The notes under the pieces: model-generated
The model's database searches: none
Told to the model about the DNA's origin: nothing
What the model saw: the letters and a program-made list of their open reading frames with translations, nothing else
Program-made: the position numbers and the translations under genes
Assembly (NCBI GenBank): GCA_021555105.2
Contig: CP134604.1
Location: 806,001 to 870,000 of the forward strand
From: Thalassospiraceae bacterium LMO-JJ14
GTDB taxonomy: Bacteria; Pseudomonadota; Alphaproteobacteria; Rhodospirillales; Casp-alpha2
Direction of reading: 5' to 3'
Length of the DNA: 64,000 nucleotides
In this document: one piece after another, positions 3,877-57,166 of the stretch
Numbering within the stretch: the first letter of the stretch is position 1
How the letters are laid out: the number at the start of each line of letters is the position of its first letter

Positions 3877-4779
3877 ATGTGGGACAACATTATGGTGCTG
3901 GTAGCGGCACCTGTATTTTCCGTGCAACTCGTACTGGATGGGCTTTTCATCGGCGCCACTTTTGCGTTGGCAGCTTACGGACTGGCTCTGGTTTGGGGCG
4001 TGATGAACGTCAAGAACCTGGCGCAGGGTGATTTTGTCATTGCCGGGGGATACATCGCCTGGTGGCTCGGCAAGCAGGGCATCCATCCGTTATGGGGACT
4101 GCCGGCGGCGATCATCATCATGTTCGCGTTCGGCTGGTTCATTTATGTGACGATTATCCGCCGGGTTATCGATAAGGATCTGTTTACGTCGCTTTTGGCG
4201 ACCTTTGGTCTGGCAATTGTCATGGCACAGGGTCTGAACCTGATGTTCGGACCGGAAGTGCAGACTGCGGAAAGCGATTTCGCCATCCGTTCCATGTGGG
4301 ACAACAACCTGACGATCGCCGAGATCAAGGTGCTGGCCTTCGTATTGTGCGGCATCCTCGCCGTGATGGTTGTGCTGTTCATGAAACGCAGCCGCATGGG
4401 GCAGGCCATTCGCGCCACCGCCCAGGACGCACGCGCGGCCCGCGTCATGGGGATCGATACTGATAAGGTTTACGCCTTTACGTATTCCCTCAATGCCGCG
4501 ATCTGCGGGGCTGCCGGTGCCATGATCTCGATGATCTGGGTGATCCAGCCGTTTTACGGCATTTCGCATTCGATCCGCTCCTTCGTGATCGTGACGGCAG
4601 CCGGGTTCGGCAATCTGCCGGGCGTCATCATGGCGGGCCTTGGTCTCGGGGTGGTGGAAAACCTTGGCGGTTTCGTCTTCGGGGCTGAATTCCAACAGGC
4701 CATTGTCGTCGGCTTGTTGCTGGTGGTGCTTGTCTGGCGCCAAATTCAGCAGCGCAAGCTTCGCCAAGTCGTCAGCTGA
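3877..4779 (+). CDS. livH: Branched-chain amino acid type ABC transporter permease (LivH)
   Basis: A 300-aa inner-membrane permease with about eight hydrophobic segments. The opening VLDGLFIGATFALAAYGLAL and the following NLAQGDFVIAGGY are characteristic of LivH; the EAA-like cytoplasmic loop for the ATPase is the R-A-T-A-Q-D-ARAARVMG region around residue 175-190. It forms a heterodimer with the LivM-like protein encoded next. The start at 3877 is preceded by AAGGGA. Gap to livM is 15 bp. Confidence 0.92.
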   Translation: MWDNIMVLVAAPVFSVQLVLDGLFIGATFALAAYGLALVWGVMNVKNLAQGDFVIAGGYIAWWLGKQGIHPLWGLPAAIIIMFAFGWFIYVTIIRRVIDKDLFTSLLATFGLAIVMAQGLNLMFGPEVQTAESDFAIRSMWDNNLTIAEIKVLAFVLCGILAVMVVLFMKRSRMGQAIRATAQDARAARVMGIDTDKVYAFTYSLNAAICGAAGAMISMIWVIQPFYGISHSIRSFVIVTAAGFGNLPGVIMAGLGLGVVENLGGFVFGAEFQQAIVVGLLLVVLVWRQIQQRKLRQVVS

Positions 4780-4794
4780 TCCTGGGAAATAAAA

Positions 4795-5829
4795 ATGAAT
4801 AGCAACTTTTCTTTGAAAATCCACCTGCCGCTCCTCGTGTTCGGCCTGGCGGCGCCGTTCGTGTTCCCGGGTCTGCAGTACCAGATTGCGACGCTTTGGG
4901 TCATGGTCCTGTTTGCCCTGACGTGGGACGTCATGGGCGGGCAGATGGGCTATAACTCACTCGGCAACATCTTCTTCTTCGGCGTCGGTATGTATGCCTC
5001 AGCGGTTATTCAGATCGCCCAATTCGCCGATGTCGGTGCCTTTACCGCGGCGCGTGGTGCCATCGTCGTCGAATATACGGATGCCCAGTACTACCAGGGC
5101 CTCGTGCTTGGGATTCTGGCGTCCGGGTTTGTTGCTGCGGCGACGGCATTCGCGCTTGGCTGGACCGTGTTCGGTCTGCGCGGCCCGTACTTTGCCATCG
5201 GCACGCTTGGCATGGCCCTGGCGGCGGGTGAGCTGATGGGAACGTGGGAATGGGTCGGCGGCGGCGGTGGCATCGGCATGCCGGTGTTCCCGGGATCGGC
5301 CCAAGCCAAGGGACTGACGTTCTACTTTCTTACGTTTGCTGCCGCGATCCTGACCTTCGTGACGCTGCAGTGGGTTTACAAAACGCGCTTTGGGCTGGCC
5401 ATTAACGCCATCCGCGATGACGAAGAAAAAGCCGAAGCCATGGGCATCCATACCTTGCGCTACAAAAGCGTGGCATGGGCGATCTCGGCGTTTTTCCTTG
5501 GTATTTCCGGTGCGCTGTTCGGCAATATCGTCGGTTTCGTCGAGCCGCTCGAAGTGGCTTTCCCGACAGTTACCTTCGGCATCTTCATGGTCGCCATGAC
5601 GCTGCTCGGCGGCAAGGGAACGCTGTGGGGCCCGGTCCTCGGCGCGATATTGTTCCACGTCATCAAGGAAGCCACATGGACTTATTTCCTGGGCTGGCAG
5701 TGGGTTGCGCTCGGCATGCTGATCATCATCAACGTGGTGTTCTTCCAGCAGGGGATCATGGGCTGGCTAATGGAAAAATATCCGGAGAAATTCGGCATCA
5801 TTGTTGAGGACAAGGGAGGCTCGAAATGA
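4795..5829 (+). CDS. livM: Branched-chain amino acid type ABC transporter permease (LivM)
   Basis: A 344-aa polytopic membrane protein, the second permease subunit. LTWDVMGGQMGYNSLGNIFFFGVGMY is near the N-terminus as in LivM proteins (seen in two blocks here), and AINAIRDDEEKAEAMGI is the conserved cytoplasmic loop that contacts the ATPases. A short glycine-rich loop (GGGGGIG) follows the central segments. Its TGA overlaps the ATG of livG by 4 bp (ATGA), so the two are translationally coupled. Confidence 0.92.
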   Translation: MNSNFSLKIHLPLLVFGLAAPFVFPGLQYQIATLWVMVLFALTWDVMGGQMGYNSLGNIFFFGVGMYASAVIQIAQFADVGAFTAARGAIVVEYTDAQYYQGLVLGILASGFVAAATAFALGWTVFGLRGPYFAIGTLGMALAAGELMGTWEWVGGGGGIGMPVFPGSAQAKGLTFYFLTFAAAILTFVTLQWVYKTRFGLAINAIRDDEEKAEAMGIHTLRYKSVAWAISAFFLGISGALFGNIVGFVEPLEVAFPTVTFGIFMVAMTLLGGKGTLWGPVLGAILFHVIKEATWTYFLGWQWVALGMLIIINVVFFQQGIMGWLMEKYPEKFGIIVEDKGGSK

Positions 5830-6575
5830 CCAATTACGTGATTGAGGTCGAGGGCGTCTCGAAGTCCTATGGCGGTGTGATCGCCAACAAAAGCGTCTCG
5901 ATGAAGGTGCCGGACGGGAAGATCACCGGTTTGATCGGACCCAACGGATCAGGCAAGACGACGCTGTTCAATTCCATCGTCGGCTACCACCCGATCGACG
6001 AAGGCTCGATCAAGTTCAAGGGCAAGGAAATCTCTGACCTTCGAGTGCCGCAGATCGCACGGCTCGGATTGTTGAGGACCTTCCAGCAGACCCGTATTTA
6101 CGGCAATATGAATTGCATCGACAACATGCTGATCTCGGTGCCCCACCGTAAAATGGGTTTCGCCGATATGTTCGGAGAGCGCGAGGCAAAGGAAACGATG
6201 GAAGAGGTCGAGCGCCTGCTCGATTTCGTCGGTCTCTACGAAAAGCGTAAGCTGCGTTCAGGCGATCTTTCGTTCGGTCAGCAAAAGCTGCTCGAATTCG
6301 CCATGGCACTGATGAACAAGCCGGAAGTGCTGTTACTTGACGAACCGACGGCGGGCATCAACCCGACCCTGATCAACGGGCTGATCGACCGCCTGCGCCG
6401 TGCCAACGAGGAATTCGGCATTACTTTGTTCGTGATCGAGCATAACATGCGCGTCATCATGAACATGGCCGAGAGTATCTATTGCCTGGCACACGGTGAA
6501 ATGCTGGCGCACGGCTCGCCGGATGAAATCCAAAATGACCAGCGCGTGATCGACGCATATCTGGGAGCGCACTAA
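5826..6575 (+). CDS. livG: Branched-chain amino acid type ABC transporter ATP-binding protein (LivG)
   Basis: A 249-aa cytoplasmic ATPase of the transporter. Walker A is GPNGSGKTT at residues 38-46, the Q-loop is in LLRTFQQTR, the signature is LSFGQQK, Walker B is VLLLDEPTAGINP and the switch His is in VIEHNM. The C-terminal AHGEMLAHGSPDEIQND is typical of LivG. It overlaps livM by 4 bp and touches livF through TAATG. Confidence 0.95.
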   Translation: MTNYVIEVEGVSKSYGGVIANKSVSMKVPDGKITGLIGPNGSGKTTLFNSIVGYHPIDEGSIKFKGKEISDLRVPQIARLGLLRTFQQTRIYGNMNCIDNMLISVPHRKMGFADMFGEREAKETMEEVERLLDFVGLYEKRKLRSGDLSFGQQKLLEFAMALMNKPEVLLLDEPTAGINPTLINGLIDRLRRANEEFGITLFVIEHNMRVIMNMAESIYCLAHGEMLAHGSPDEIQNDQRVIDAYLGAH

Positions 6576-7465
6576 TGAGCGAGGAAACAACACAAACCGA
6601 CACGGAAAAGCGCAAAGCGTCGGGCTACCATATGGGTAGCGTCGAATCGGTGATTTCCGTCGAGCAGGTCGTCGCGCAAACCCGTGCGATGGCCGAGGAT
6701 GTGCCGCTCGAAAAGTTGGCGAAACTGGCCAACAACGACCCGTTCGTCGAGATCAAGGACCTGAAGGCAGGTTACGGCAAGATGGAGATCCTGCACGATT
6801 TGAACCTGCAGGTCGCCAAGGGACAATCGCTTTGCCTGATCGGCCCGAACGGTGCGGGTAAATCGACGATCCTGCATTCAATCTACGGCTTCACCAACAT
6901 ATTTTCGGGATCGATTGAGATCGGTGATCCCGGCAAAAAGCAGAACGTCACCGATCTGTCGCCGAACGAAAAGCTGAAGAAAGCGGGGATTGCCTACATC
7001 CTGCAGGACAAATCGATTTTCCCCGACATGACGGTCGAGGAAAATCTGTGGATGGGCGGGTTCCTGATGGATACGCCGGCGATGGCCCATGAAGCGGCGG
7101 AACGCGTTTTCGCGAAGTACGACCGCCTGGCACAGCGCCGTACGCACAAGGCCAAGGTTCTGTCCGGCGGTGAGCGGCGCCTCCTGGAAATCTCGCGCGC
7201 CCTGGTCATGGATCCGGAAGTGCTTTTGGTCGACGAGCCGTCGATCGGTCTTGAGCCGCGGTTCATCGACATGGTGTTCGATATCCTCGACGATCTGCAG
7301 CACGGTGAAGGTAAAACCATCATCATGGTCGAGCAGAACGCCAAGAAAGGTCTTGAATTCGCGGATATCGGTTATGTGTTGGTTTCCGGCGAACTGGCGA
7401 TTGCCGGCACGGGTGACGAACTCCTCGCCAACCCGGAAGTCGGCCGTTTGTTCCTAGGTGGTTGA
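6575..7465 (+). CDS. livF: Branched-chain amino acid type ABC transporter ATP-binding protein (LivF) with N-terminal extension
   Basis: A 296-aa ATPase, the second nucleotide-binding subunit. The ABC domain begins near residue 57 (FVEIKDLKAGYGKMEIL), with Walker A GPNGAGKST at 90-98, the Q-loop YILQDKSIFPDMTVEENL, signature LSGGERR, Walker B VLLVDEPSIGLEP and a His-to-Gln switch (VEQNA) that is normal for LivF. LivF proteins usually have about 235-240 residues; here about 56 charged, probably helical residues precede the domain. The start is fixed by TAATG overlap with livG, and no internal start with a good site was seen, so the extension is probably real. An insert (IGDPGKKQNVTDLSPN) also lengthens the first half. 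Confidence 0.92.
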   Translation: MSEETTQTDTEKRKASGYHMGSVESVISVEQVVAQTRAMAEDVPLEKLAKLANNDPFVEIKDLKAGYGKMEILHDLNLQVAKGQSLCLIGPNGAGKSTILHSIYGFTNIFSGSIEIGDPGKKQNVTDLSPNEKLKKAGIAYILQDKSIFPDMTVEENLWMGGFLMDTPAMAHEAAERVFAKYDRLAQRRTHKAKVLSGGERRLLEISRALVMDPEVLLVDEPSIGLEPRFIDMVFDILDDLQHGEGKTIIMVEQNAKKGLEFADIGYVLVSGELAIAGTGDELLANPEVGRLFLGG

Positions 7466-7518
7466 GCAACGAATATACCTCCAAGGTTGCATGCCGTTGT
7501 TGATTTGGAGGGACTCTG

Positions 7519-8229
7519 TTGTTTGATGCTGAATTGAACCTGTATGTGGTTTTCGGGTTCATCGGTGTCGCTTTGTATCTGGGGTCTTACGCGGCACTTC
7601 AACTCGGCTATGTGAACGGGCAGGGCGGGCTCTATGCGCTGCTGAATCTGACCGCTGCGAGCAGTGTGCTGATCAGCCTCATTCAAGCATTCAACCTGTC
7701 ATCAGCATTGATCCAGGTGTTCTGGATTTTTATCAGCATCATTGGCTTGATCCGGATGTATCTGCTGACCCGTCACATCCGGTTCAGCGACGAGGAACGT
7801 GCGTTTATCGACCAAGCCATGCGGAATCTGTCGAAGCGCAAGGCGCGGAAATTTCTGGATGCGGGATACTGGATCGACGGCGAATCCGGTGCCGTGCTGA
7901 CACGCGAGGGCGAGCCCGTCGAGCACCTGATTTACCTGCTTGAGGGCGAGGCCGAGATCATCAGCAGCGGCAGGGCGATAGCCGTTTGTGAAGCGCATTC
8001 CTTCATCGGCGAACTGACGGCGATGTCCGGGGAACCGGCGACCGCGACTGTGCGTCTAGACCGCCCGTCACGGTATTTCTGTATTGGCGTCCAGGTGCTG
8101 CGGCAACGACTGATGAAGGATCTCGAAATACGCGCCAACCTTGAAAGCTGCGTCAGCCAGCAGATGCTGCACAAGCTGAAACGCTCCAATCAAGCTCTTG
8201 CGGGGAACGGTCTCGTCGTCAACAGGTGA
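7519..8229 (+). CDS. Membrane protein with CBU_0592-like region and degenerate cyclic nucleotide-binding-like domain
   Basis: A 236-aa protein with three hydrophobic segments (about residues 8-28, 38-58 and 62-84) followed by a cytoplasmic domain (about 105-215) that looks like a cyclic-nucleotide-binding beta roll: HLIYLLEGEAEI is the early strand pair and SFIGELTAMSGEPATATVRL is the phosphate-binding cassette. In that cassette the Arg that binds the cyclic phosphate in CRP-type domains is replaced (PATATV instead of P-R-A-x-x-V), so nucleotide binding is doubtful. The start is TTG at 7519, with GGAGGGA at 7507-7513. It lies 53 bp behind livF on the same strand and may be the last gene of the transporter operon, but no direct role in transport is known. 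Confidence 0.72.
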   Translation: MFDAELNLYVVFGFIGVALYLGSYAALQLGYVNGQGGLYALLNLTAASSVLISLIQAFNLSSALIQVFWIFISIIGLIRMYLLTRHIRFSDEERAFIDQAMRNLSKRKARKFLDAGYWIDGESGAVLTREGEPVEHLIYLLEGEAEIISSGRAIAVCEAHSFIGELTAMSGEPATATVRLDRPSRYFCIGVQVLRQRLMKDLEIRANLESCVSQQMLHKLKRSNQALAGNGLVVNR

Positions 8230-8258
8230 GCTTTGTCTGTTCGCCTGTCCGCTATCGA

Positions 8259-10286
8259 TCAGTCCGCTGCCTGGGCGTGGCTTTCAACGACCTTTTCGGC
8301 ATCCTTGCCGGTCAGTTCCTGCAAGTGATCGAAGGCGGTGACGAACGTGCCTGCGCCTTGCGTTGACGAGCGAATCTCGACGATCAGGTTCTGCATTTCG
8401 GCTGCCGGCATCTGACACGATACCTCATCCCAGCCGTCCCAGCCGGGTTTGGCATCGTAACCAAGGATCTGCCCCCGGTGCGAGGTGATGATCCGCTGGA
8501 TGCGCGCCGTATAGCTGTTCGGCACCGAGATCGTCACGCTGTTAACCGGTTCCAGAAGAACCGGGCCCGCCTCCGGCAAAGCGTCACGAAGCGCCTGTGC
8601 GCCTGCCTTGCGGAAGGCCATTTCCGACGAGTCGACGGCGTGGAATTGCCCATCCGTCAACGTTACCGCTACATCGACCACGGGAAAACCGAGCGGCCCC
8701 GTCATCAGGGCCTCTTTTGCACCGGCCTCGACGGCGGGAATATATTGCTTCGGCACCGCGCCGCCATGGATCGTGTCGGAGAAACTGAAACCGTCACCGC
8801 GCCCCTGCGGTTTGAGGTCGACATGCACATCGGCAAATTCACCGTGTCCGCCGGATTGTTTCTTGTGGCGCGCATGTTTGCTGACCGGTTTGCGGATGGT
8901 CTCGCGATACGCGATGCGGGGCGGCGTTGCGATCACGTTCAAGCTACTTCGATTGGCAAGTTTTTCCAGCGCCAGCTTGAGGTGCATCTCCCCCTGGCCA
9001 AGCAGTACATATTCCCCGGTGGTATCGTCGTGCTGTGTCGACAGCGAGGGGTCTTCGTCGATAATCTTCTGTAGGTTGGCCGGTAGCTTGACGTCGTCGG
9101 AGCGGCTTTCGGCGCGGATCGCCAATCCGTAAAGCGGCCTCAGGCTGGTTTGCGAATTCGCCCGTTGAATGATCTTGTCGGGACCCGCCACATCGCCGGT
9201 GCTGATGTCCTCCATTTTGCCAAAACCGATAACGTCGCCGGCTTCGGCTTTGGTGACGCGGTCCAGGTTCGATCCGGAGGAACGGTTGAGTCCCGCCGGG
9301 CGCGCGCCCGCCAGGCTGTCGCCGTCGGCAACCTGGCCACGCATGACCCGCCCGTACGACAGTTTCCCTGCGTGACCGGCATGGACGGTTTTGAAGATGC
9401 AGACCCGGGCTTCCCCGGTTTCGTCGATGCCGAGCCTGGCTGCCGTCTCCGTAACGTCGGGGGCTTCGTGACGAAGTGCCTTCATCAGCCGTCGGACGCC
9501 GTTGCCGTGCGTCACCGAGCCGAAGAACACAGGCACAATAAGGTTTTCCGCAAGATCGCGGGTCAGATTGGCATAAACCTCATCGGTTGACGGGACCGCG
9601 TCTTCTAGCAGTTTTTCCAGCAGCGTGTCATCGAAATCGGCGAGGCTTTCGAGCATCTCCGTGCGTGCCTCGGCTTCGCGGCCCTGCATGGTCTCGGGCA
9701 GGGAGATCAGCTTAGACGGCTGCCCTTCCTGCCAGCTGAAGGCGCGTTCGGAAACCAGATCGACATGACCTTTTATGCTCTCACCTTCACGGATCGGAAT
9801 CTCGCGCAGCACCAACGGCCGTGTCGATGCCGCCTGCAGCGCTTCCAGGGTTTCGCGGACACTGGCGCGCACCTGATCCATTTTGTTGATGAACACGATG
9901 TGCGGCAGTCCGGCCTTGTCCATGGCGCGCAGCATCGGCGCCAGGGCAATAGCCTTTTCCGGTTCCGGTTCGCAGACCACGATGGCGATATCGGCGATAT
10001 CCATGGCGCTCTGCATTTCCTGATGCAACTCGACGGAACCGGGGACATCGATAAAGGTCCAGCGTTCGTCGAGATACTCGGCCGTGACGATATTCATTTC
10101 CGTCGACATGGCATGCGCCCGGGCTTCTGCCGAGCCGTCGCCAAGCGATGTGCCGTCGGTGACGGTGCCGCGCCGGTTCAAGGCCCCGGCCTCTACGAGC
10201 AGCGCTTCAAGCAATGAAGTCTTGCCCGATGAATAGGGGCCTGCGATCAAGGCCGCGCGCGGCGATACTGGGTGATTCCTGGTCAT
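8259..10286 (-). CDS. Elongation factor G-like GTPase paralogue
   Basis: A 675-aa cytoplasmic protein with the full EF-G domain order: GTPase domain (to about 270), domain II, then domains III-V (residues about 380-670, with the SGGHGEFADVHV block of domain IV). Walker A is GPYSSGKTS (16-24) and G4 is NKMD (134-137). Two canonical elements are altered: the G3 motif is DVPGS (80-84), with Ser where translational GTPases have the catalytic His of D-x-P-G-H, and the switch I RGIT block is replaced by HAMSTEMNI. This resembles the EF-G-like proteins found as second copies beside fusA in alphaproteobacteria, whose function is not settled. It stands alone, divergent from the GMC gene, and is not near ribosomal protein genes, so it is not the housekeeping EF-G. 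Confidence 0.88.
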   Translation of the reverse strand: MTRNHPVSPRAALIAGPYSSGKTSLLEALLVEAGALNRRGTVTDGTSLGDGSAEARAHAMSTEMNIVTAEYLDERWTFIDVPGSVELHQEMQSAMDIADIAIVVCEPEPEKAIALAPMLRAMDKAGLPHIVFINKMDQVRASVRETLEALQAASTRPLVLREIPIREGESIKGHVDLVSERAFSWQEGQPSKLISLPETMQGREAEARTEMLESLADFDDTLLEKLLEDAVPSTDEVYANLTRDLAENLIVPVFFGSVTHGNGVRRLMKALRHEAPDVTETAARLGIDETGEARVCIFKTVHAGHAGKLSYGRVMRGQVADGDSLAGARPAGLNRSSGSNLDRVTKAEAGDVIGFGKMEDISTGDVAGPDKIIQRANSQTSLRPLYGLAIRAESRSDDVKLPANLQKIIDEDPSLSTQHDDTTGEYVLLGQGEMHLKLALEKLANRSSLNVIATPPRIAYRETIRKPVSKHARHKKQSGGHGEFADVHVDLKPQGRGDGFSFSDTIHGGAVPKQYIPAVEAGAKEALMTGPLGFPVVDVAVTLTDGQFHAVDSSEMAFRKAGAQALRDALPEAGPVLLEPVNSVTISVPNSYTARIQRIITSHRGQILGYDAKPGWDGWDEVSCQMPAAEMQNLIVEIRSSTQGAGTFVTAFDHLQELTGKDAEKVVESHAQAAD

Positions 10287-10542
10287 ATACGGTTCCTCCC
10301 CGGATGTTCCATCCAGGCCCGAGAGGGACCGCTTTTTTACCGGTCGTCTTTTTTCGAATGGTGCGGCCCTGCGGGCACTTCATTCATTATTATGCGAATA
10401 GCCTAGCCCCAATTAGGGATTGAATCCAAGAGGCAAGCGCCATTTCACCTCCTGTTGATTATACGTAGTTCCGGGAATTGCCTGTTTTCCCTGTCTGTGG
10501 GACGCTGTGCTCAGGATTTTGAGGCGGGGGAGCACGCAACCG

Positions 10543-12153
10543 ATGAAGAAACTGGGATCGTTCGATTATGTGGTCGTCGGCGCCGGCAGCGCCGGGTGTG
10601 TTCTTGCCAATCGCCTGTCCGAAGACCCGAATGTCACGGTGGCGCTTCTGGAAGCCGGCGGCAAAGATGATTACATCTGGATTCATATCCCTGTCGGGTA
10701 TTTGTACTGTATGGGGAACCCGCGCACCGACTGGGGGTTTCAGACGGAGCCGGACAAGGGCTTGAATGGCCGGGCACTGAACTATCCGCGTGGCCGTGTG
10801 CTCGGTGGCTGCTCGTCGATCAACGGCATGATCTACATGCGCGGCCAGGCCCGCGACTATGACCAATGGCGTCAGTTCGGCAACACCGGCTGGGGCTGGG
10901 ACGATGTCTTGCACTATTTCAAGAAATCCGAAGACCAGCTGGCAATGCCTGCGGATGAATTTCACGGCGAAGGCGGCGAATGGCGTGTCGAAAAGCAGCG
11001 GTTGCGCTGGGATATTCTGGATGCCTTCCGCGATGCCGCTGCGCAGGCCGGACTGCCGCTGACCGACGATTTCAATCGCGGGAATAACGAAGGTGTCGGG
11101 TATTTTCAGGTCAATCAACGTGCCGGTTGGCGCTGGAGCACGGCCAAGGGATTCTTGAAGCCGGCCCGGGGCCGCGCCAATCTGACCGTCTTTACGCATG
11201 CTCAGGTCAAGAAGCTGAATTTGACGGAAGGCCGGGTCACGGGTGCCGAGCTTAAGCACGGCGACGCAGACGCGACGATCGACGCGGAGGGAGAGATGAT
11301 CCTCTGCGCCGGCTCCGTCGGTTCGCCGCAGATCATGGAGGTGTCGGGTATCGGACGACCCGACGTGCTTGGCAAGTACGGGATCGAGGTCAAGCACGCC
11401 CTGCAGGGCGTCGGCGAGAACCTGCAGGACCATCTGCAGATCCGCTGTATCTACAAGGTCTCCGGCGTCGAAACCCTGAACGAGCAATATGCGTCGTTAC
11501 TCGGCAAGGCGAAGATCGGCCTGCAATATGCGCTGTTCCGCAAGGGGCCGATGACGATGGCGCCATCGCAATTGGGCGCGTTCACAAAAAGCAGCGGCGA
11601 ATACGAGACGCCGAATATCCAGTATCATGTGCAGCCGTTGTCTCTGGACAAGTTCGGCGAACCCCTGCATCCGTTCCCGGCCTTCACTGCAAGCGTCTGC
11701 AATCTGCGCCCCGAAAGCCGCGGTTCGATCCATATCAAGTCCGCCGATCCCATGGCGAAACCGGCGATCAATCTGAACTATCTGACGGCACAGGCGGACA
11801 GGAAGGTTGCCGCCGACAGCATCCGCATGACACGTAAAATCATCGCCCAGCCGGCGTTGCAGAAATTCTCACCGGAAGAGTTCAAGCCCGGCCCGGATTA
11901 CATGGAAGACGAGGCGCTGGCGTCCGCCGCCGGCGACATCGGAACGACGATCTTCCATCCCGTCGGGACCTGCAAGATGGGGAACGACAACATGGCCGTT
12001 GTCGATGAACGTTTGCAGGTGCGGGGGGTCAGGGGACTTCGGGTTATTGATGCGTCGGTCATGCCGACGATCACCAGCGGCAACACCAACTCACCGACGA
12101 TCATGATCGCTGAAAAAGGTGCCGATATGATCCGCGAAGATGCACGGCCCTAA
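10543..12153 (+). CDS. GMC family oxidoreductase (choline dehydrogenase-like)
   Basis: A 536-aa FAD enzyme of the glucose-methanol-choline family. The N-terminal dinucleotide-binding fold is [16 protein letters not shown]; signature 1 is [18 protein letters not shown]; signature 2 is [15 protein letters not shown]; the catalytic region shows HPVGTCKMG and [16 protein letters not shown] near the C-terminus. Proteins of this size oxidise primary alcohols and pass electrons to a membrane acceptor; choline cannot be claimed because betB, betI and a betaine transporter are absent. The ATG at 10543 is used because the FAD fold begins ten residues later and GGGGGAG lies upstream; the frame is open to 10507. 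It converges on the cysteine-repeat gene with a 4-bp gap. Confidence 0.92.
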
Positions 12154-51695: not shown

Positions 51696-53315
51696 ATGGA
51701 AGCTGCACATCATGTCGACCTGACCGGGATCGCGATTGTCGCACTTGGCGCGCTGGTGTTCGGTTTCGTTCTCGAACGCCTGCGCCAGCCCGCCATTGTC
51801 GGCTATATCGTCGCCGGGGTCGCGCTCGGCCCCGCCGGGTTCGGGCTCGTCAACGTCCGTGACGGCATCGAGGTGCTCGCCGAGATGGGCGTCCTCATGC
51901 TGTTGTTCATCATCGGTATGGAACTGTCGCTCAGGGCCTTCATGCGCATCTGGAAGATCGCCGTGTCGACGACGCTGTTCCAGATCACGGCTTCGACGGC
52001 GGTGACGCTGGGGCTGTCCAGGCTGGCCGGATTCCCGTGGGAACTGGCCGTCCTGCTGGGCTTTGTCGTCGCCATGTCGTCGACGGCGGTGGCGATCAAG
52101 ATCCTCGACGACATCGGCGAACTCAGGAGCAGTGTCGGGCAGATCACGGTCGGCGTGCTGATCGCCCAGGATATCGCCGTGGTGCCGATGATGCTGACCG
52201 TCGGCGCGCTCGGCGGCGACGGCTTCAAGTATTCGCAGATTCCGGTGATGATCGGCTCGGTGGCGTTCCTGATCGGACTGATCCTGTATGCGTCCCGGGG
52301 CCGCAAGATCCACCTGCCGTATGCCGACAAGATCGCCGAGAACAAGGAGCTGGCGCCGCTGGCGGGGCTCGCGTTCTGTTTCGGCTGGGCGGCGATTGCC
52401 GGTCTGATCGGCCTGTCGGCGGCGTATGGCGCGTTCATCGCCGGACTGATCATCGGCAATTCGCAGGCCCGTCACGCGATGCTGAACAGCGTGCTGCCGA
52501 TCCAAAGCGTCCTGATGATGGTGTTCTTCCTGTCGATCGGGCTGCTGATCGACCCGGCATATATGTGGAACAATGCCGGTGTGGTGGCGATGCTGTTCCT
52601 GATGGTGACGGTGTTCAAGACCATCATCAATGTCGGCTTCCTGCGGTTTCTCGGCCAGCCATGGTCGACGGCGTTTCTGGCCGGCATCAGCATGGCGCAG
52701 ATCGGCGAGTTCTCGTTCCTGCTCGCCGTCGTCGGGATCGCGTCCGGTGTGCTCGACGAGGAAGGGCGCCGGCTGATCGTCTCGGTGACGGTGCTTTCGC
52801 TGGCGCTTTCGCCGTTGTGGGTGTTCACGGCCCGGCGTCTGCATCTGCTGGCGAGCTATGGCGTGACCGAGGCACTGGACCTTTTGAAACTGGTCTATGG
52901 GCCGGAAACCGAGGCCGTGGCGCTGGCCGCCGAGAAGGCCAGCAGCAAAACCCAGCGCGGCTTGCGGATTGCTGCGCTGAAGGTACGCAAGTTGCGCCGC
53001 AAGCGGAAATCGACACGCACACCGGTGATCCGGGGCAAGACCGCGGCCCCGCCCGAAGCGGCGGCAGAAGTGCCCGAAGCGGCGGCAGAAGTGCCCGAAG
53101 CGGCGGCAGAAGTGCCCGAAGCGGCGGCAGAAGTGCCCGAAGCGGCAGGTGAAACGCCCGAAGCGGCGGCGGCATCTGAAAAATCCGCCCGAAAAAAACC
53201 TGCGGCCAAGAAAACCGCGGCCAAGAAAACCGCGGCCAAGAAGCCCGCCCAGAAGAAGCCCGCCCAGAAGAAGCCCGCCCAGAAGAAGCCTGTCACACCC
53301 AAGGGCGATGCCTGA
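51696..53315 (+). CDS. KefB-like cation:proton antiporter with Ala/Lys-rich C-terminal tail
   Basis: A 539-aa membrane protein. Residues 1-390 have about twelve hydrophobic segments of the CPA2 type ([71 protein letters not shown]). No TrkA-N domain follows. From about residue 452 the tail consists of near-perfect repeats of PEAAAEV and then of Lys-rich units ([10 protein letters not shown]), 60-85 residues in all. This is like the tails of histone H1-like proteins. The stop overlaps rnhB by 8 bp. Confidence 0.85.
53051..53170 (+). repeat. 21-bp tandem repeat in the antiporter tail
   Basis: Four perfect 21-bp units (53051-53134) each encode PEAAAEV, followed by two degenerate ones. The DNA identity of the units implies recent slippage or homogenisation. 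Confidence 0.9.
53208..53294 (+). repeat. 15-bp tandem repeat in the antiporter tail
   Basis: Two units of AAGAAAACCGCGGCC (53208-53237) and three of AAGAAGCCCGCCCAG (53238-53282) plus a partial unit encode Lys-Lys-Thr-Ala-Ala and Lys-Lys-Pro-Ala-Gln repeats. Confidence 0.9.
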
Positions 53316-53955
53316 AGCAGGTCCGGATCTGAGGTGCGAACAGGCGGCCTGGGGCGCCGGGCATGTCCGCGTCGCGGGCGTCGACGAGGCCGGGCGCGGC
53401 CCGCTGGCGGGCCCGGTGGTGGCGGCTGCGGTGGTCCTCGACCGTGCCGTGCTGGACGATCCGCTGTGGCGCGCGCTGGACGATTCAAAACGTATGCGCG
53501 CCGCCGCCCGGGACCGGCTTTTCGATGAAATCATGGCCACGGCGCAGGTCGGCGTCGGCATCTGTAATGTTGACGAGATCGATCTGCTGAACATCCTCGG
53601 TGCCACCATGAAGGCGATGGCCGATGCCGTGCGCGCTCTTGATCCGGCAGCGGATTATGCGCTGATCGACGGTAACCGGCTGCCGGTGCTGCCGCTCGAG
53701 GCGGCCTGTATCGTCAAGGGCGATCAGAAATCGCTCTCCATCGCCGCCGCGTCGGTGATCGCCAAGGTGACGCGCGACCGCATCATGGCCGATCTGGCCG
53801 TGCGCTATCCGGGCTACGGCTGGGAACGCAACGCCGGGTACGGCACGGCGGAACATCTGGCGGCACTGCAGAGCCTCGGCGCGACGCCCGCGCACCGCAG
53901 AAGCTTCGCGCCGGTCAGGGACGCATTGGCGGCGTCGCATCCGCCGCCGCGCTGA
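53308..53955 (+). CDS. rnhB: Ribonuclease HII
   Basis: A 215-aa enzyme that cuts the RNA strand of RNA-DNA hybrids at ribonucleotide sites. Catalytic Asp26 and Glu27 are in [13 protein letters not shown] and Asp121 in [28 protein letters not shown] is the second signature. The ATG at 53308 overlaps the antiporter stop. In many alphaproteobacteria rnhB is next to ccrM, and here two extra genes lie between them. Confidence 0.95.
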
Positions 53956-54153
53956 GATACGTCTCGTCCCGCGGAAAATAATATGAGCAGTGCCGGGTTT
54001 TGTTTTCCGTAAAACCCTCGCGAAAGCGAAGGTGCGATGCCTTGAGAAACCGCATCATCACCCGGATGACCGGTATTAACTTCCCTTTCCGCAGGTAATT
54101 TGTATAATCTCAATGATTGTATACGCACAGAGAAAATCGCCTTGGGGGCCGCC

Positions 54154-55119
54154 ATGTCGCTCGAAGCATTTGCTGACGCAACGCGCCGGAAATTCGGCAG
54201 TGACGACATTGCCCCGAAGCACCTTGTCGAGATGGCCCGATGGCTCTCCGAACTCCTTTTAAAGAACGAGAAAACGGAAATCCGGGGTTTGATGCTTGGA
54301 GTGGGGCTGCATTTGCCTTGGCCCTCCAGTTTCAGAGAATTATTTGCTTACGGGCTTGAAGTTCCACCTGAAGGTATCCGTCCTCTAAAGCTGACAGTAC
54401 TCGCCAGTCGCTCGGATGCCGGTATCGACTCCGACGAGATTGCACCAGTAGAAAGAGTCCCTTCGGTACGCGGTGCCCTCGACGCCCTGTTGGGCAAAGA
54501 GGCAGCGGAAGTGGCCGGGGAATTGAATGTGCTGCCCGTGTCCCTGGGCTTCCGTCATGCGAACCCGGGCGACAGGTTGATAAACGCGACAAGCGGACGC
54601 ATGGGGCCTCATGTGCAATGGGGATCGGGCCGGCAAGGTTTTTTGACGGCAGGACATGTGGCGCAATCCGTCGGGACGCAAGTTACGGACGATCAGGGCG
54701 GACCGCTTGGCACAGTGGTCTGGTCCAACGATCCGGCTCTAGTATTATCGGGGCAAGGTGACATCGACGCCGCATTGGTGGAGTTTCAATCGGGTTTCCG
54801 TGCGAGGACCGGCCGGACGTCCGTCGTTCCGGCGGCGCTTGATGTTCTGACAGTCGAGGGCAGTTATGCGCGCGCCGCGTTGTTCGGCAAGTTCGCGCAT
54901 GTTTCCCTGGGTAATGCCCTGGCCTGTTATGCCGATTGCTACGCGACCGAGAGGTTAATTACGCAACCCGGTGACTCTGGCAGTTTGGTAGAAGTTAACG
55001 GCGGAATCGCCGGCACGGTGATCGGTGGTTATATCCGCCGCGATATGACGCTGATCCAGGATATTGATTATCAGTTAGGTGTAATCGCGTCCCGGGCCGG
55101 ATTGTCGGTTTCACTGTAA
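54154..55119 (+). CDS. Cytoplasmic trypsin-like serine protease
   Basis: A 321-aa protein without signal peptide or membrane segment. Residues 150-300 have the trypsin triad: His168 in FLTAGHVAQ, Asp203/205 in GDIDAALVEF and Ser275 in TQPGDSGSLVEV. Residues 1-140 form a domain that I do not recognise: a helical start, MLGVGLHLPWPSSF and LKLTVLASRSDAG, possibly a sensor or substrate-binding part. The ATG at 54154 is preceded by GGGGG; an upstream TTG at 54100 is in frame but coincides with a TATAAT box at 54103. The gene is 26 bp ahead of the partner gene. This cassette interrupts the usual rnhB-ccrM pair. Confidence 0.85.
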   Translation: MSLEAFADATRRKFGSDDIAPKHLVEMARWLSELLLKNEKTEIRGLMLGVGLHLPWPSSFRELFAYGLEVPPEGIRPLKLTVLASRSDAGIDSDEIAPVERVPSVRGALDALLGKEAAEVAGELNVLPVSLGFRHANPGDRLINATSGRMGPHVQWGSGRQGFLTAGHVAQSVGTQVTDDQGGPLGTVVWSNDPALVLSGQGDIDAALVEFQSGFRARTGRTSVVPAALDVLTVEGSYARAALFGKFAHVSLGNALACYADCYATERLITQPGDSGSLVEVNGGIAGTVIGGYIRRDMTLIQDIDYQLGVIASRAGLSVSL

Positions 55120-55145
55120 ATCGGATCAGAACAAGGAGAGAGGTT

Positions 55146-55766
55146 ATGTATATCGCCGCCGACGGAATATCGAACGACCTGCCCCCCGATGTGCTGTCTT
55201 TGAAGACGTCTGCAGCCTTGATGGCCGCCGGACCCGATCGCGGCACAACGCATGGCGGTGAAATGTCAGCGATGGCTCAGGGGCCGTCCGTAAGCGAATC
55301 CGCGCTCGACCGATGGGACGTTCAATCCCATCAGTACACGACCAAGGCCGAGGTCGAGACCAGCATCCTCGGACGGCTTTTTTCCGGAAAGGGAGGGGGA
55401 TCGCATCACGGACTTGTGCAAGAAGCGAAACGCTTTTGCGTCATAGAGTCCGAGGAAGGCCGGAAGGTCGAGTACGGCACAGCCGTACGTTTGTCCGTGG
55501 CGGTGCTTGCCACTGAATTTGAAGCTTCGTTGACGCTGCCGAACATTGCCGCGACGACACAACTCACCGATGTGCGTGCACGTATCGCGCTGTCGGTCGC
55601 CGGATATTCCGGCCCGCTGGGGGAACTCTTGCCAGCGCCGGATAATCTCAATGTCGAAAACCTTGCGGTTTATACCACCGCATTCAAGGCGATACAGGCC
55701 AAGGTGTTCGGCGCCAGTGGGATCGACGGCATTTCTCCGACATTTCTGGGTTACTATGACCTCTAG
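55146..55766 (+). CDS. Unrecognised partner of the trypsin-like protease
   Basis: A 206-aa soluble protein with AGGAGAG upstream of its ATG. The first 60 residues look disordered (rich in Ala, Ser, Gly), then follows a likely beta-rich domain (FCVIESEEGRKVEYGTAVRL ... SLTLPNIAAT) with a C-terminal helix. There are no membrane segments. It may be a substrate, an inhibitor or an adaptor of the protease. I do not recognise the family. Confidence 0.7.
   Translation: MYIAADGISNDLPPDVLSLKTSAALMAAGPDRGTTHGGEMSAMAQGPSVSESALDRWDVQSHQYTTKAEVETSILGRLFSGKGGGSHHGLVQEAKRFCVIESEEGRKVEYGTAVRLSVAVLATEFEASLTLPNIAATTQLTDVRARIALSVAGYSGPLGELLPAPDNLNVENLAVYTTAFKAIQAKVFGASGIDGISPTFLGYYDL

Positions 55767-55792: not shown

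Positions 55793-57166
<1,374 letters not shown>

Follow-up and report, generated by a model that had tools for sequence, protein, structure and literature searches.

The stretch of DNA analyzed here (the window, 64 kb) belongs to an alphaproteobacterial genome of 3.89 Mb assembled as a single contig. Between rnhB (positions 53308 to 53955) and ccrM (56066 to 57166) lie, on the plus strand, a gene for a putative serine protease (54154 to 55119) and a gene for a partner protein (55146 to 55766). A previous sequence-only reading had described the two middle genes as a unit, and this description holds: both open reading frames are present, separated by a 26-bp gap that contains a strong Shine-Dalgarno sequence for the partner (AAGGAGAGAGG, plus strand, 55133 to 55143). 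The neighbors in the window (nhaA, MFS, kefB, rnhB, ccrM, glutaredoxin/DinB, and permease genes) encode ordinary transporters and enzymes. Defense genes, for which that reading had proposed a search near the pair, were not among them; none was recognized around the window locus. The end of the kefB-like gene (53060 to 53312) carries repeats (PEAAAEV, followed by a second, 12-residue type) that form a lysine/alanine-rich tail just 5' of rnhB.

The rnhB-ccrM neighborhood, thought from sequence alone to be conserved, is so in part. The two genes are adjacent in 4 of 7 congeners (G002, G004, G006, and G007) and are close neighbors in most family members examined, but the remaining three congeners have different genes 5' of ccrM, named by eye as sensor/GGDEF-like (G001), oxidoreductase (G005), and methyltransferase (G003) genes. 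Because of these three congeners, the site 5' of ccrM is regarded as variable and insertion prone. Within the genus, the conserved ccrM upstream region is preceded by rnhB, the GGDEF-like gene, the oxidoreductase gene, the methyltransferase gene, or the protease-partner pair. This upstream region, with GANTC sites (55958 to 56065, plus strand), forms the right limit of the insert; about 110 bp 5' of ccrM are conserved and intact beyond it (122 bp align with G002 and G005 at 82% identity), and the insert therefore sits just 5' of the ccrM control region. On the other side, the leader between rnhB and the protease gene (53956 to 54153, plus strand) is AT-richer (49.5% GC), is not alignable with congeners, and belongs to the inserted segment.

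The GC contents of the protease (57.5%) and partner (58.3%) genes are lower than those of rnhB (69.1%), kefB (64.2%), and ccrM (60.0%), as had been noticed before. Because the window averages 60.3%, this dip is mild, and the pair is mildly foreign rather than striking in composition (GC3 of 0.60 and 0.65 for the protease and partner, respectively, versus a mean of 0.70). Insertion by a mobile element was considered and rejected for the window locus, with no transposase, no nearby tRNA, and only short flanking repeats of chance length.

Features of the two proteins

The predicted protease (321 aa, plus strand) would comprise an N-terminal domain (approximately residues 1 to 120; 54154 to 54513) and a chymotrypsin-fold (S1) domain. 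Its ATG start at 54154 is backed by homologues (MSLEAFADAT and MTLDAFAMAT), the conserved start being M[ST]L[ED]AFA.AT. The catalytic triad proposed earlier was recovered: the motifs FLTAGHV (His168, predicted catalytic; codon at 54655 to 54657, plus strand), GDIDAALVEF (Asp203/Asp205), and PGDSGSLV (Ser275 of GDSGS, predicted catalytic; 54976 to 54978, plus strand) are present, and H168, D203/D205, and S275 are invariant, in the order His-Asp-Ser, across the proteases of the window and of two further genomes (G857 and G858; see below). Although both aspartates are invariant, Asp205 (GDIDAALV; 54766 to 54768, plus strand) is probably the triad residue rather than Asp203 (54760 to 54762), because it gave the best fit to the S1 pattern D-x-A-L-V. 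Hydropathy revealed no signal peptide or transmembrane stretch in the protease or the partner (maximum 19-residue Kyte-Doolittle values of 1.0 and 1.2, respectively, with no hydrophobic N terminus), in agreement with the cytoplasmic location suggested before. The protease is thus predicted to be a cytosolic, chymotrypsin-fold S1 enzyme.

Neither the protease nor the partner had a match in Pfam, NCBIfam, PADLOC, or PHROGs, whereas the flanking rnhB and ccrM genes were recognized at once by the same libraries. The 206-aa partner and the N-terminal domain of the protease (residues 1 to 120, no library match) therefore stay as unplaceable as they had first seemed; neither protein is known to any protein-family library used, and the partner is an undescribed family. 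AlphaFold models of the partner and the protease had mean pLDDT values of 35 and 32, respectively, too low for use. A profile built from the three proteases aligned weakly (E value of 0.06) with NAPase of Nocardiopsis (PDB 2oua) over 139 residues, across the His, Asp, and Ser positions, and weakly with trypsins, in register around the serine (E values of 0.6 to 0.8). In an hhalign comparison with a single HtrA-like sequence, the probability was 1.8%, with GDSGS aligned with GNSGG.

Among S1 proteases, the S1E type (NAPase) is nearest. The TAGH, D-x-A-L-V, and PGDSG motifs occur in the same order in the window protease, but it lacks a signal peptide, has Val in place of the disulfide Cys after His, carries the extra 120-residue N-terminal domain, and lacks the S1-pocket Asp of trypsin. 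The corresponding position, six residues before Ser275, is occupied by Ile; we take it to be the determinant of trypsin's Lys/Arg preference, and the protease is thus probably not a Lys/Arg cutter. Judging from family knowledge, "trypsin-like" would describe the fold of this protease and not its specificity.

The partner (206 aa, plus strand) has a conserved N-terminal motif (residues 1 to 16), a variable linker (approximately residues 23 to 53), and a conserved core (residues 54 to 206). Within the core, a C-terminal domain (residues 107 to 205; 55464 to 55760, plus strand) is common to lipoproteins of gamma- and betaproteobacteria. The other members are organized likewise, and those of the close subfamily have [FY]IAxDG...P.DV as the N-terminal motif; a 10-member alignment has 16 invariant columns, nearly all of which lie within the core. 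Partners of one genus (L044, L055, L056, and L057) have a short aromatic/basic start, MLGWIKAFFKR or a variant of it, with which they might bind membranes; in the one such start tested, the helical moment was unexceptional for the composition.

Recurrence of the pair and distribution of the partner

The pair is real and recurs in unrelated loci, and so is not peculiar to this strain. Two genomes from a different alphaproteobacterial order (G857 and G858) have a 44%-identical protease gene directly 5' of a 50%-identical partner gene. Order and strand match those of the window; the locus, which is unrelated, adjoins a nitroreductase-like gene. These protease homologues (positions 6392 to 7303 of locus L056 in G858 and 7731 to 8645 of locus L057 in G857) are 303 to 304 aa long, retain all triad residues, and surfaced only via the partner; first searches in 150 relatives, plasmids, viral contigs, and a pattern scan of genome contigs had found no protease homologues. 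The weak matches from the protease searches were unrelated proteins where inspected. In G858, the protease stop overlaps the partner start (TAATGATG), and in G857 the two frames abut. No mobile genes were found at the window or nitroreductase loci.

The partner family was traced stepwise from a 49%-identical solo gene (two MAG records) to G401 and then to ten genomes, G401 included, of the 341 in its order. No credible partner match was found among the 150 relatives of the window genome; searches likewise found no relatives of either protein in plasmids or viral contigs and none of the partner family in phages. Weak partner matches (L033 to L038) were dismissed as chance (e.g., L034 is a permease). 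Two MAGs filed as Citromicrobium and Henriciella (L039 and L040) share identical proteins across several kilobases, so that one bin or both must be mixed or misnamed.

Thirteen genome records contain the partner (G000, G150, G151, and the ten of the 341-genome order; G936, which has a lipoprotein relative, is not counted). In 10 of the 13, all covered by a protease profile search, no protease was detectable; two of these 10 (G150 and G151) are identical in sequence. The protease was always next to the partner (3 of 3: the window, G857, and G858), and none was found alone (n = 3). A protease never seen without its partner and a partner seen without the protease are what one would expect if the two were toxin and antidote, in which case the protease would be harmful, the partner would be an inhibitor or immunity protein, and solo partners would be leftover or protective inhibitors. 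We consider such a toxin-antitoxin-like pair quite unlikely, because solo partners are spread over several genera and share little identity with one another (more than orphan antidotes would give), the putative toxin gene comes first where the usual order is antidote first, and the partner's domain is found in exported lipoproteins.

Solo partners adjoin housekeeping genes, named by eye as ribosomal-protein genes (L059 and L063) and pgeF. The chromosomal setting beside such genes, the lack of mobile genes at the two paired loci, and the strong conservation of the partner core are compatible with a protein quality control or stress unit, in which the partner would serve as an adaptor or folding factor and the protease as a housekeeping hydrolase in the same process. 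The very patchy distribution, from 10 of 341 genomes in one order to no credible partner among the relatives of the window genome, argues against this idea, which we find improbable.

Loss of the protease and selection on the solo partner

Two congeners of G857 and G858 (G401 and G555) have the same locus, but the 900 bp holding the protease gene are missing, an almost exact removal of that gene; the flanks of the missing segment align (78% and 74%). Before the partner, an 11-codon scar with the original start is left (MTRDADLLART and then a stop in G401; MTRDADLLATT and then a stop in G555). Deletion of the protease gene appears more likely than a late insertion, because the window genome, which belongs to another order, has the same protease-partner order. 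Since the scar is common to G401 and G555, the loss predates their split, and selection acted without the protease. Their partner genes differ at 11 nucleotides, with 10 synonymous changes and 1 nonsynonymous change (1 amino acid). The resulting dN (0.0020), dS (0.062), and dN/dS (~0.03) come from one species pair, for which the probability of so few nonsynonymous changes is 8e-6 if neutrality is assumed. In this one pair, the partner is kept by purifying selection after loss of the protease.

If the partner worked only once this protease had cleaved it, the solo gene should decay; it is instead kept under selection, and the partner appears to have an independent function. Because the protease is undetectable in most partner records and was deleted while the partner stayed under selection, our results suggest that the partner is the core of the module. 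The protease-effector pair of a conflict system that the sequence-only reading had evoked is not supported as stated, given this deletion, the mostly solo partner, and the lack of recognized defense genes near the window locus. Its other elements hold, namely a cytosolic S1-fold protease paired with an unclassified protein, inserted at this site and recurring elsewhere, and a faint link to conflict systems is left (L061 and L087, described below).

Lipoprotein relatives, immune proteases, and the role of the partner

The C-terminal ~100 residues of the partner matched lipoproteins (first match, E value of 1.7e-6), and an hhalign check confirmed the link (probability of 96%, E value of 1e-9; unrelated control, 0.2%). 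The lipoprotein relatives are L065 in G936, WP_015060932.1 of Psychrobacter, and a broken gene on the Caballeronia plasmid pNK84. They share with the partner a ~100-residue domain with GVGLRL, IAA, G..G, and LPxPSELN-like positions; unlike the partner, they are exported, have unrelated N-terminal halves, and have no adjacent S1 protease. In pNK84 (L087, positions 4926 to 10976), the relative is split by an IS5 transposase gene and lies directly 5' of a cluster of genes for a caspase, an unknown protein, and an MBL protein, which resembles canu defense systems (PMC12799240). A second caspase neighborhood was found in G556 (L061, positions 4408 to 7272), where a divergent partner is convergent with a caspase-like gene on the opposite strand. 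The product of that gene matches NCBIfam NF047832 (E value of 2.8e-15, below the curated cutoff) and has a C-terminal transmembrane segment; a small membrane-protein gene is also present, and the opposite side is occupied by IS-type transposase genes. Through these two neighborhoods, each a single case, there is a faint link to conflict systems.

An immune role for the pair is possible. HamMAB, Avs1, caspase-nuclease systems, and protease-gasdermin pairs (PMC12799240) provide precedents for a partner that would be a silent pro-effector activated by protease cleavage on phage infection. A cytosolic S1 protease adjoining one partner gene with coupled translation, the patchy distribution, the insertion at a variable site, and the two caspase neighborhoods (that of L061 with IS elements, and that of the plasmid with a caspase-nuclease-like locus) all fit this scheme. 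We nevertheless rate it as unlikely, given that the partner stays conserved and under selection where the protease is missing, that no sensor or defense genes were recognized around the window locus, that solo partners sit beside housekeeping genes, and that both caspase neighborhoods are single cases, with the partner on the opposite strand in L061.

In Hachiman, AVAST, Lamassu, and canu, trypsin-like proteases are paired with pro-nucleases (PMC12799240). The window pair is similar in that a cytosolic trypsin-like protease is encoded beside a single dedicated partner gene; it differs in having a partner not recognizable as an MBL nuclease, a protease without fusion to a defense protein, the reverse gene order (protease first), and a partner that is retained where the protease is missing. 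The partner did not match MBL-fold nucleases of the HamM/Avs1/LmuA/CanC type in the same libraries that do recognize the L087 MBL protein. No infection-sensing protein was found fused to or beside the protease, which has no further recognized domain and ordinary neighbors. Trypco1 and Trypco2 are trypsin-co-occurring domains of VMAP conflict systems (PMC7159879). Like them, the partner is a small protein of no known family encoded beside a trypsin-like peptidase, but no VMAP, MoxR, or vWA genes are near the window pair. None of the scanned partner members matched Trypco1 or Trypco2 in Pfam up to E values of 1 to 10, and Pfam, we assume, holds models of both. CARD-NLR and gasdermin systems include LypABC of Caulobacter (PMC13236601). 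These share with the window pair an alphaproteobacterial trypsin-like peptidase that carries an N-terminal domain; the window pair has no ATPase domain, NLR-like gene, or recognizable gasdermin. The partner had no library match to gasdermins, although these diverge strongly.

The reading that we prefer, and to which we give about even credence, is a horizontally spread two-gene module in which the partner has its own function and an optional protease processes or regulates it. The first gene would supply a cytosolic serine protease that has the chymotrypsin fold and an additional N-terminal domain, and the second, co-translated or nearly so, would supply the partner with its conserved N-terminal motif, variable linker, and conserved core. 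The partner would carry the main function and the protease would be an add-on, which may contact and cut the partner, most simply in the linker between the N-terminal motif and the core; such a cut would change the partner's activity, location, or turnover. The N-terminal motif is also kept in protease-less members and thus need not be a cleavage feature. Our best guess is that the partner's role is membrane or envelope associated, perhaps responsive to stress or invaders, because its C-terminal domain has lipoproteins as relatives and the aromatic/basic start is found in several members.

A broader version of this module, which we hold to be unlikely, would make the partner a new family of protease-controlled proteins, standing alone and acting in the envelope or in stress, to which different proteases are added as switches. 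With similarly low confidence, these switches would be the S1 protease here and perhaps caspases elsewhere. It seems equally doubtful that bacterial immune proteolysis can recruit the partner as a target, one that is neither a nuclease nor a gasdermin nor a Trypco protein.

Pairs of a protease and a partner are described more and more often in bacterial immunity, and it is by such coupling that new partners are sought. The general kind found here, a cytosolic protease with a dedicated partner, is known; what is new is a pair absent from all libraries used. Its history also counsels caution, in that a gene adjoining a protease is not thereby a pro-toxin. Sister species in which the protease alone was lost and the partner stayed under selection constitute a natural experiment, and this natural deletion makes it testable whether the protease activates the partner, trims it, or is restrained by it.
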